The notes below the pieces were generated by a model. That model was not told the origin of the DNA, ran no database searches, and saw only the letters and a list, made by a program, of their open reading frames with translations. This document shows positions 31,201 to 37,200 of a stretch of 64,000 nucleotides of DNA, one piece after another. Every line of letters begins with the position of its first letter. The stretch's first letter is position 1. The stretch comes from Siphonodentalium dalli (taxonomy: Eukaryota > Mollusca > Scaphopoda > Gadilida > Siphonodentaliidae). The position numbers and the translations under genes are program-made. The stretch is from NCBI GenBank assembly GCA_032622095.1, contig CP136066.1, forward strand, positions 44,467,835-44,531,834. Direction: 5' to 3'.

Positions 31201-34200
31201 TATGGGCAACTTCTGAGACACAGACCTTCCAAATGGTGATGAATTATAGTATTTCAATCACATTTTATGACATAGATTGTTATTAAAACCGTATATCAAG
31301 GCAATATACAAAAATAATCGGTGACTCGAAAATTAAGTGTGCCTTTAAAAAAGTAAATATTTCATTTATAAATTTATACAATCTAGTGCAAATCAGTGGG
31401 CCCTAATAAAAGAATGCTGAAAAACCTTCACAAACTGGGAGAATTTATACGAACCCTATTTACACAACTTGGTTCACCCCCCCCCTTTCCAGCTCATAAC
31501 TATTTACTTAAAGGTACTCAACCCGATAAAACTCCTCTCAATTACTATTTCAATGGCTTCGGGGGTCAAAAATATTTGATTCGAGTCGAGGAAGTCACCC
31601 ATCAAAGCTCAGATTTGTTAGATATCGATTTTAGAAATCTATTATTTTTCATTATCGGGAATTCTTTCTGGCCCAGAAGAATGTCAAAAATTCGTTATTT
31701 TTACCCACTTGATTATAGAGTTATCCATCCTTGTCTGTTTGAATAGAATTTTGGCGTAATATCTCGAGCAGGTTACCAAATTGACGGCAGTTATTGGTAC
31801 TCATCTCGAGAACATAAGAATTTTCAAAAATCAATATCTAATAACTCTGAGCTTTGTTTGATGGGTTCCTCGACTCGAATCAAATATTTTTTACCCCCAA
31901 AGCCAAAGAAATAGTAATATAGGACCCTCTGATCGGATTGTTGTTGTTGGAATCTGTTGAGATGGGGACCCTCTTTACGGGTTGAGTACCTTTAATAATC
32001 GATCACCCTACACTATAGTATTTATTCTGCAATGCTATATGAACTCTTATGTCGAATCTGAGGTGGGTATTTTATTTACCCTTTCTATACTAAATGGATT
32101 TTCCCACTCAGTTATAAAGGTATACACTGGAATGGTCCATTGCTCATCTGGATGGGTATTAATGACAAATAACCAGACGACGACAGACAATACGAGTACA
32201 GAAGTAGTCCTATTTATTGGAGGCAAATTTTCAGACAATAAGTTCAACAAACCAACCAATTGTGACCCGCCATATCAAATCCAGTCGTAAGTCGGGATTT
32301 TTTTTACCCTGTGCCAATGCATTCTCTTATATATGCGAGTCGACCATAGTTGACCATAGGTCGCCTCGCATATATAAGAGAATGCATTGGCCTAACAATT
32401 TTTTTAAATAAATGTTTCTTACAATTTTTAGGACATAAAATAAAAAACATCCATTACCCAGCAGGGAGCCCCACACATATATAGAAGCATATAGAAGAGT
32501 GTCGTCTGCTCATGTTTGTCTGGGGCTCTGTATGGGTAAAATTTTAAAATTGTTAAAGAATACAAGAAAAAATTATTCAAATTGTAAAAAATTGTTAGGC
32601 CAATGCATTCTCTTATATATGCGAGGCGACCTATGGTCGACTCGCATATATAAGAGAATGCATTGGCACAGGGTAAAAAAAAATCCCGACTTACGACTGG
32701 ATTTGATATAGCGGGTCACAATTGTCCATTTGTTTAACTCATTATCTGAACAGTTCCTGAGGGATAACTGCTCATCGATCAGTATTTAGTGAAGAAAGGG
32801 TTAATTTCCCAAGTTAGTGTTTTGTGTGACAAGAATTGACTTTATTATACGTGACTGCTTTTGAATGTTTTGGCCCCGATATAAGCGTATATAGAATCGT
32901 CAATATTCGAAATACGTATACTGTGTTGCCGCCACGCTAACTTTAAAAATTGGTATATAAATGTCTGTTTTTTAATAAATAATAGTATAATTCGGTGAAC
33001 GACAAACGAATTATACTATTATTTATTAAAAAACAGACATTTATATACCAATTTTTAAAGTTAACAAGACAAAACCTAGATAAATTAAAATTATTGTTAC
33101 ATGTATAGTTATATTACTTTTCAACGGGGACGGCAGGTAGACAACCTTCTTGGTTATGCTGTCCCCGATAGCTCATTGAATGTTATACTATTACACTGTG
33201 TATATAATTGTAAATATCATATGAATGAGTTATGAATAAATAATCATAGTCATCATAGACTATACCATACCTGTTTTATTCACCAATCTAGTTCTGGAAC
33301 TGACAGTATATACGTCACCGAGTACAGTTTGACGGCTGACGTGTGGAGGATATGGCTGGATGAAGTTGACTGCGTCGGGAACGAGTCTACGATTTTGGAC
33401 TGTCCATTCCGCGAATGGGGAATTCATGATTGTAGCCACTTTAATGACGCGGGGGTCCGCTGCGGTGAGTAGTAGATATGGACTGCCCATTCCGCGAATG
33501 GGGAATTCATGATTGTAGCCACTTTAATGACGCGGGGGTCCGCTGCGGTGAGTAGTAGATATGGACTGCCCATTCCGCGAATGGGGAATTCATGATTGTA
33601 GCCACTTTAATGACGCGGGGGTCCGCTGCGGTGAGTAGTAGATATGGACTGTCCATTCCGCGAATGGGGAATTCATGATTGTAGCCACTTTAATGACGCG
33701 GGGGTCCGCTGCGGTGAGTAGTAGATATGGACTGCCCATTCCGCGAATGGGGAATTCATGATTGTAGCCACTTTAATGACGCGGGGGTCCGCTGCGGTGA
33801 GTAGTAGATACGCGGTGGTGAGCATTTTGGACTGTCCATTCCGCGAATGGGGAATTCATGATTGTAGCCACTATAATGACGCGGGGGTCCGCTGCGGTGA
33901 GTAGTAGATACGCGGTGGTGAGCATTTTGGACTGCCCATTCCGCGAATGGGGAATTCATGATTGTAGCCACTATAATGACGCGGGGGTCCGCTGCGGTGA
34001 GTAGTAGATACGCGGTGGTGAGCATTTTGGACTGCCCATTCCGCGAATGGGGAATTCATGATTGTAGCCACTATAATGACGCGGGGGTCCGCTGCGGTGA
34101 GTAGTAGATACGCGGTGGTGAGCATTTTGGACTGCCCATTCCGCGAATGGGGGATTCATGATTGTAGCCACTATAATGACGCGGGGGTCCGCTGCGGTGA

Positions 34201-37200
34201 GTAGTAGATACGCGGTGGTGAGCATTTTGGACTGCCCATTCCGCGAATGGGGGATTCATGATTGTAGCCACTTTAATGACGCGGGGGTCCGCTGCGGTGA
34301 GTAGTAGATATGGACTGTCCATTCCGCGAATGGGGAATTCATGATTGTAGCCACTTTAATGACGCGGGGGTCCGCTGCGGTGAGTAGTAGATATGGACTG
34401 TCCATTCCGCGAATGGGGCATTCATGATTGTAGCCACTTTAATGACGCGGGGGTCCGGTGCGGTGAGTAGTAGATATGGACTGCCCATTCCGCGAATGGG
34501 GAATTCATGATTGTAGCCACTTTAATGACGCGGGGGTCCGCTGCGGTGAGTAGTAGATATGGACTGCCCATTCCGCGAATGGGGAATTCATGATTGTAGC
34601 CACTTTAATGACGCGGGGGTCCGCTGCGGTGAGTAGTAGATATGGACTGCCCATTCCGCGAATGGGGAATTCATGATTGTAGCCACTTTAATGACGCGGG
34701 GGTCCGCTGCGGTGAGTAGTAGATATGGACTGCCCATTCCGCGAATGGGGAATTCATGATTGTAGCCACTTTAATGACGCGGGGGTCCGCTGCGGTGAGT
34801 AGTAGATATGGACTGCCCATTCCGCGAATGGGAAATTCATGATTGTAGCCACTTTAATGACGCGGGGGTCCGCTGCGGTGAGTAGTAGATATGGACTGCC
34901 CATTCCGCGAGTGGGGAATTCATGATTGTAGCCACTTTAATGACGCGGGGGTCCGCTGCGGTGAGTAGTAGATATGGACTGCCCATTCCGCGAATGGGGA
35001 ATTCATGATTGTAGCCACTTTAATGACGCGGGGGTCCGCTGCGGTGAGTAGTAGATACGCGGTGGTGAGCATTTTGGACTGCCCATTCCGCGAATGGGGA
35101 ATTCATGATTGTAGCCACTTTAATGACGCGGGGGTCCGCTGCGGTGAGTAGTAGATACGCGGTGGTGAGCATTTTGGACTGCCCATTCCGCGAATGGGGA
35201 ATTCATGATTGTAGCCACTTTAATGACGCGGGGGTCCGCTGCGGTGAGTAGTAGATACGCGGTGGTGAGCATTTTGGACTGCCCATTCCGCGAATGGGGA
35301 ATTCATGATTGTAGCCACTTTAATGACGCGGGGGTCGGCTGCGGTGAGTAGTAGATACGCGGTGGTGAGAATTTTGGACTGCCCATTCCGCGAATGGGGA
35401 ATTCATGATTGTAGCCACTTTAATGACGCGGGGGTCCGCTGTGGTGAGTAGTAGATACGCGGTGGTGAGCATTTTGGACTGTGAATTCCGTGAATGGGGA
35501 ATTCATGATTGTAGCCACTGGAATCACGCGGGGGTCCGCTGCGGTGAGTAGTAGATACGCGGTGGTGAGCATTTTGGACTGCCCATTCCGCGAATGGGGA
35601 ATTCATGATTGTAGCCACTTTAATGACGCGGGGGTCCGCTGCGGTGAGTAGTAGATACGCGGTGGTGAGCAATTTGGACTGCCCATTCCGCGAATGGGGA
35701 ATTCATGATTGTAGCCACTTTAATGACGCGGGGGTCCGCTGCGGTGAGTAGTAGATACGCGGTGGTGAGCATTTTGGACTGCCCATTCCGCGAATGGGGA
35801 ATTCATGATTGTACCCACTGGAATGACGCGGGGGTCCGCTGCGGTGAGTAGTAGATATGGACTTCCCATTCCGCGAATGGGGAATTCAAGATTGCAGCCA
35901 CTGGAATGACGCGGGGGTCCGCTGCGGTGAGTAGTAGATATGGACTGCCCATTCCGCGAATGGGGAATTCATTATTGTACTCACTGGAATGACGCGGGGG
36001 GTCCGCTGCGTTGAGTAGTAGATGTGGACTGCCCATTCCGCGAATGGGGAATTCATGATTGCAGCCACTGGAACGACGCGAGGGTCCGCTGTGGTGAGTA
36101 GTAGATATGGACTGCCCATTCCGCGAATGGGGAATTCATTATTGTAGCCACTGGAATGTCGCGGGGGTCCGCTGCGGTGAGCAGTAGATACGATGTGGTG
36201 AGTAGTAGGTACGTGATGGTGAGCATTTGGGACTGCCCATTCCGCGAATGGGGAATTCATGATTGCAGCCACTGGAATGACGCGGGGGTCCGCTGCAGTG
36301 AGTAGTAGATACGCTGCTGTGAGTAGTAGATACGCTGCTGTGAGTAGTAGATGCGCGGTGGCGAGCAGTAGGTACGCTGTGGTAAGCAGTTGATACGCTG
36401 TGGTTAGTATTACATATAGCTTGGTGGCATGACGCGTGGGGTCCGCTGCGGTGAGTAGCAGATACGCTGCTGTGAGTAATAGATACGCTGCGGTGAGTAG
36501 TAGATACGTTGTGGTGAGCAGTATATACGCTGGTGTGAGTATTATATATAGCTTGGTGGCATGACGCGTCGGGTCCGCTGCGGTGAGTAGCAGATACGCT
36601 GCTGTGAGTAATAGATACGCTGCGGTGAGTAGTAGATACACTGTGGTGAGCAGTATATACGCTGTTGTGAGTATTATATATAGCTTGGTGGCATGACGCG
36701 TCGGGTCCGCTGCGGTGAGTAGCAGATACGCTGCTGTGAGTAATAGATACGCTGCGGTGAGCAGTAGGTACGATGTGGTGAGCAATATATACGTTGTTGT
36801 GAGTATTAGATATAGTCTGGTGGCATGACGCGGGGGTCCACTGCGATGAGTAGCAGATACGCTGTGGTGAGTAGTATATACGCTGTGGTGAGTAGTAGAT
36901 ATAGCCTGGTGGCATGACGCGGGGATACGCTGTGGTGAGTGGTATATACGCTGTGGTGAGTAGTATATACGCTGTGGTGAGTAGTAGATACGCTGCGTTT
37001 AGCAGTAGATACGCGGTGGTGAGCAGTAGATATGCTGCGGTGAGCAGTAGATAGCCCGGAAGGCGCTGCTAAATTTCAACAAGTTCTGGAATTGCATTGA
37101 GTTATCCCCCTTGTTACAGGTTCTAAGTTTAAATATCGGGGTCAAATAATATAAACGAATACATTGGTTTACTGGTCGTAACTATAGCAACACGAGTGTC

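Follow-up and report, generated by a model that had tools for sequence, protein, structure and literature searches.

In the scaphopod mollusc Siphonodentalium dalli, the end of a coding exon and its 5' splice site recur as a 32-unit tandem array that begins in the exon itself and continues into the following intron. The array lies at positions 33396..36312 on the plus strand of a 64,000-nucleotide stretch of GenBank assembly GCA_032622095.1 (contig CP136066.1, positions 44,467,835 to 44,531,834; hereafter the window), within a multi-exon gene for six SRCR repeats, and its first unit is the tail of the second-half exon of the sixth repeat, SRCR6. We conclude that it is probably a large minisatellite of the mirage type, seeded at the exon/intron boundary, enlarged, tolerated, and mostly passive. 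Mirages, minisatellites that duplicate exon/intron boundaries, have been reported in amphioxus in Adh3 and in the globin genes BflGb6 and BflGb9 (PMC3087553, PMC3902484).

Results

The SRCR6 exon end and its donor are the first unit of a tandem array

The SRCR6 second-half coding exon occupies positions 33292..33464 on the plus strand (173 nt; start phase 2, end phase 1), and its authentic 5' splice site, as predicted by the gene model, is the GTGAGT at 33465..33470. The last 68-69 nt of this exon and the donor constitute unit 1, and each unit comprises 68-73 nt of exon tail and the donor, followed by an intronic stretch of 15 or 32 nt (longer in one unit). We located 32 unit starts, spanning 33397 to 36230, with unit lengths of 83 bp (17 units), 100 bp (13 units), 84 bp (one), and 121 bp (one), in agreement with a preliminary description of the sequence that had proposed about 32 units made from the SRCR6 exon tail and its donor. 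The tandem array is not a chance pattern (Tandem Repeats Finder, TRF, score 3102); at a period of 200 bp, its main part shows 90% TRF matches, and 20 of the 32 full units are distinct.

Both the splice signal and the exon sequence are well preserved. Thirty of the 32 units keep GTGAGT as their donor, the remaining two reading TTGAGT and GTGAGC, and the complete junction GCTGCG/GTGAGT is found in 26. When the 31 intronic copies were compared with the exon tail over 68 sites, 23 showed no more than two differences; units 4 and 11 are identical to the exon, and every unit from 2 to 23 lies within 3 nt of it. The same 22 residues are encoded by 19 of the 31 ungapped exon parts (the exon included); of the earlier statement that nearly all later units keep both the codons and GTGAGT, the part on mostly intact donors is confirmed. 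As in a mirage, the tandem units span the exon/intron boundary with the exon as the first unit, and the splice signals are kept in many of the units.

More diverged layers extend the array distally

The preliminary description placed the end of the array at 36330; this has to be revised, as repeats with 21-bp and 132-bp periods run about 0.7 kb further, to approximately 37053. These more diverged layers (36312..37053, plus strand) are built of 21-bp units resembling CGCTGCG/GTGAGTAGTAGATA within a 132-bp higher-order repeat; the TRF matches are 84% and 70% for the periods of 132 and 21 bp, respectively. Upstream of the donor-like sites, homology to the exon covers 68-73 nt in the main units and 21 nt in four distal copies, while nearly all other distal sites match the exon over 5-11 nt, and two sites match over 0 or 1 nt. 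The 21-bp unit is tied to the boundary because it also carries the intron start GTGAGTAGTAGATA. Between 33396 and 37062, the plus strand contains 70 GTRAGY sites (49 GTGAGT, 20 GTGAGC, and 1 GTAAGC), a density of 19 per kb as compared with 0.9 per kb on the same strand elsewhere in the window.

Divergence from the exon increases along the array

The difference from the exon rises with distance along the array (Spearman 0.58, p 0.0006, over the 31 intronic units, which are non-independent), the mean per 68 nt being 1.4 in units 2-23 and 5.5 in units 27-32; for unit 29, a value of 6 was entered by hand, although its alignment contains 1 inserted base besides 6 mismatches. Neighbours along the array resemble each other more closely than units far apart do (on average 1.97 differences at lag 1 versus 4.17 at lag 25), and the units are grouped in blocks by linker type and by a single codon. 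This codon is TTT in the exon and most units, TAT in units 6-9, and TGG in unit 24 and units 27-32. At this SRCR position, Y is encoded in 4 and W in 6 of the 31 ungapped units, F being the residue of the exon and most units, and the stored tails read HWND in the distal main units and HYND in units 6-9 where the exon reads HFND. Comparing unit substitutions with the exon tail, a check suggested in the preliminary description, revealed the homogenised interior and diverged edge of a mirage, unit 24 excepted. Our reading of this age pattern is that the array grows, or is homogenised, next to the exon, and that the older material remains at the far end.

We saw no clear protection of the codons in the units. 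Among the 30 ungapped intronic units (unit 29 left out), 9 of 24 distinct changes in the exon part are synonymous, where fractions of 0.18, 0.22, or 0.25 would be expected for transition/transversion weights of 1, 2, and 4 (p 0.02, 0.06, and 0.13, respectively), and some of the variants, such as a lost Cys and a change of D to V, would harm the SRCR domain. The number of distinct changes per site is 0.35 in the exon part (unit 29 again left out), as compared with 0.21 for the 14 nt that directly follow it (32 units).

Of four DNA and three RNA folds, none was stronger than its shuffles (z −0.98 to 0.63). A 7-bp stem (CCCATTC/GAATGGG) occurs in the DNA fold of some units, and expansion driven by such a hairpin was considered and is not claimed. 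An exact scan with the unit core returned no matches in viral contigs and none in prokaryote contigs, a result that has no bearing on lineage.

Further boundary arrays are present at other donors of the same gene

Exon-tail copies were strong at 2 and weak at 1 of the 15 donors examined. The second strong array (26742..27166, plus strand) consists of 47-bp units made from the tail of the SRCR5 second-half exon and its donor GTAAGT, which follows position 26783; it has nine copies counting the exon, and GTAAGT is kept in five of the nine. The third and weaker array (37387..37554, plus strand; 52-bp unit, 3.2 copies, TRF score 231) opens with the end of a linker exon, positions 37387-37396, and its donor; the BLAST match to the true donor is 88% over 26 nt, and the copies differ at 5 to 9 of 28 nt. 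On the acceptor side, plus-strand BLAST found copies at none of the 13 placed acceptors (those of C1 and N6 were unplaced), and the N3 acceptor had one 22-nt match, 38 kb away.

When arrays were placed at random, at least three of them started within 100 nt before a donor in 1.4% of 20,000 placements, a modest test that was run after the pattern had been seen and for which the 51 TRF rows were condensed by hand to 26 arrays. A comparison with random probes, in which the fraction scoring as high was 0.04 (C6), 0.08 (C5), and 0.16 (linker), is not relied on; it was badly calibrated because the random probes also landed in arrays.

Splicing at a later donor would truncate the protein directly behind SRCR6

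If the first donor is read through, translation in the exon frame gives AGVRCGE followed by two stops, and GAG TAG follows the donor GT in 31 of the 32 units; therefore, with any later donor in use, translation would stop immediately behind SRCR6, and the CUB-like exon downstream would be lost. The immediate stop had been recognised in the preliminary description, which placed the end of the protein inside SRCR6; the repeat is in fact complete when the stop is reached. That description also listed CUB and ZP among the domains lost, but these are secure only in part: the CUB domain passes its Pfam threshold by a narrow margin, and Pfam recognises no ZP domain in the exon pieces tried.

In one data set of competing donors, the upstream donor was favoured under exon definition when the two were near-equal in strength, and its preference over all classes was 60% (PMC9225289). 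Given this upstream preference and introns of about 2.6 kb upstream and 3.9 kb downstream of the SRCR6 second-half exon, we expect that the first donor is mainly used, with some leakage possible.

The host gene and other features of the window

By tblastn, the plus strand of the window carries a multi-exon gene in which each of the six SRCR repeats is encoded by two exon pieces. The Pfam check covered three of the six repeats, SRCR6 as a half only, and all three exceeded the SRCR cut-off of 26.1 bits (SRCR6 half, 42.6; SRCR2, 107.2; SRCR5, 103.3). We take the gene to be group A-like, assuming six Cys and a split exon as the criterion. Downstream of SRCR6, the P/T-rich linker exon (37346..37396, plus strand; 51 nt, phase 1-1, 17 residues read by hand) has as its acceptor the 3' end of the intron that carries the SRCR6 array, and it is followed by a CUB-like exon (40634..40803, plus strand; Pfam CUB 21.5 bits, cut-off 21.4); in our reading by hand, both are in phase. 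No ZP domain was matched by Pfam in the downstream exon pieces tried, including positions 45313-45500, which by eye could be a ZP-N-like exon.

Between the linker exon and the CUB-like exon, the minus strand holds a stop-free reverse-transcriptase frame of a retrotransposon (37904-39601; Pfam RVT_1, 86.5 bits). The intron preceding the SRCR6 second-half exon contains an inverted repeat recognised by eye (32960-33080), presumably MITE-like. Two further sets of repeats were seen, a 19-bp array of 28 copies with no visible exon derivation in the intron preceding the SRCR2 second-half exon (14864-15405), and two arrays of 53-bp period at 55237-56250 whose consensus units look mutually reverse-complementary by eye.

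Discussion

The SRCR6 array resembles the amphioxus mirages in several respects. In the latter, splice signals are present in many, but not all, units, either the 5' or the 3' boundary is affected, and the units evolve in concert within the cluster with the edge excluded (PMC3087553, PMC3902484). Similar amphioxus repeats have been noted in PGBD5 and troponin C, and mirages are unstable in length, at Adh3 somatically as well (PMC3087553, PMC3902484). They differ in size, the BflGb6 haplotypes having 6 and 3 units of 150-160 bp, whereas the SRCR6 array has 32 units and additional diverged layers (PMC3087553, PMC3902484). The authors of the globin study propose a role for mirages in intron gain (PMC3087553); intron gain by tandem duplication shares with our array the copying of splice signals within a gene, but here an existing intron was enlarged and a new intron was not seen. 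In the literature searched, mirages were described only in these two papers, and no mirage in an SRCR gene came up.

Unlike the amphioxus mirages, the present gene has two strong arrays and one weak array at separate donors. A likeness also exists to minisatellites of the polar or edge-excluded kind, with which the SRCR6 array shares tandem units, blocks of variants, and a diverged far edge; the difference is that the source copy here is the end of a coding exon with its donor. On this analysis, the array would belong to the published mirage kind. It surpasses the globin examples in size and layering, and arrays of this sort recur within the gene.

We propose that a duplication of the exon tail and donor at the boundary seeded the array and that slippage or unequal exchange then enlarged it. 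Repeated rounds of duplication at or near the exon may have involved pieces of about 6, then about 21, and then 68-73 nt of exon, the older copies being left downstream by successive rounds. The boundary contained in the units, the distal layers with less exon, and the proximal copies that match the present exon support this reading. Because the same exon tail and donor end every unit, an exchange between unit 1 and any unit k would leave exon, donor, and frame intact, and for this reason the array could be tolerated. If pairing by the spliceosome across the exon joins its acceptor to the donor that lies closest, the first donor would be used and all others would be removed together with the 3.9-kb intron; the cell probably ignores the extra splice signals. 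Through exchange, the coding exon could still receive unit variants, which have F, Y, or W at one position of the SRCR domain.

Several observations weigh against this reading. Unit 24 looks old and yet lies in the middle of the array, which breaks a simple age gradient, so strict one-way growth fails there, and the polarity could also arise if the interior is homogenised while the far edge escapes this process. The 21-bp units match the exon over 5-11 nt, which on the exon side is not long enough by itself to prove an exon origin. At equal rates, the excess of synonymous changes (p 0.02) could point to exchange with an exon under constraint, and the seemingly fewer changes after the exon could mean that donors are kept; we regard both as at most weak hints. 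Finally, the published splicing results may not carry over to the present organism.

The preliminary description had suggested two functions, a donor bank for gene conversion and a length-variable splicing switch, and we consider both less likely than a passive, recurrently expanding boundary minisatellite. That the units convert the exon tail and so diversify the SRCR domain of a possible immune receptor is unlikely, although units 4 and 11 equal the exon tail, none of units 2-23 departs from it by more than 3 nt, and F, Y, or W is encoded at one position. Little diversity is stored, as most ungapped exon parts encode the same peptide, certain variants would damage the domain, and one haplotype gives neither the direction nor the rate of exchange; beyond the similarity of the exon to the proximal units, we found nothing decisive for conversion.

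It is doubtful, too, that the array serves as a layered archive of earlier exon ends that can be written back into the exon. Each round of boundary duplication would then store the current coding tail, and an exchange between unit 1 and any unit behind it would place a stored tail in the receptor with frame and splicing unbroken. If this were true, the gene would have, in the two, perhaps three, cassettes of its own exon ends, a self-arming supply of variation for an SRCR receptor.

We likewise give little credence to a splicing switch, in which use of later donors would depend on array length and yield a form ending in GE after SRCR6 or lead to nonsense-mediated decay. The intact donors, the in-frame GAG TAG, and the lower rate of change after the donor are what such a switch would have, cryptic use of the copied signals is considered possible in the amphioxus globin study (PMC3087553), and an overall upstream preference of only 60% leaves room for later donors (PMC9225289). 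However, intact donors are expected from recent copying alone, and long introns under exon definition favour the first donor (PMC9225289). In addition, data cited in the amphioxus reports suggest normal splicing for Adh3 and the globins, and the Adh and troponin C mirages are described there as being without aberrant mRNAs (PMC3087553, PMC3902484). We found nothing decisive for the switch.

Creation of the array or of its copy number by the assembler is very improbable even though a single assembled sequence is our basis and the amphioxus globin mirage was reportedly assembled aberrantly in the draft genome (PMC3087553), since distinct full units, two main lengths in blocks, layers that diverge unequally, and an SRCR5 array that is separate and has a different sequence all speak against it; the exact copy number could still be off.

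What sets the SRCR6 array apart from an ordinary minisatellite is its layered record, the repeated occurrence of such arrays at separate donors of the gene, and the ease with which donor choice, and exchange between intron copies and a coding exon, could be tested on it. It places dozens of near-identical 5' splice sites, each in its native exon context, in one intron, a natural test of donor choice in which a stop codon reports misuse of a later donor. It also preserves the history of a boundary minisatellite in readable form, in layers of unequal divergence. Our results suggest that one gene can acquire boundary arrays at several of its donors, and if alleles differ, they would give a direct view of whether intronic copies feed variants into a coding exon.
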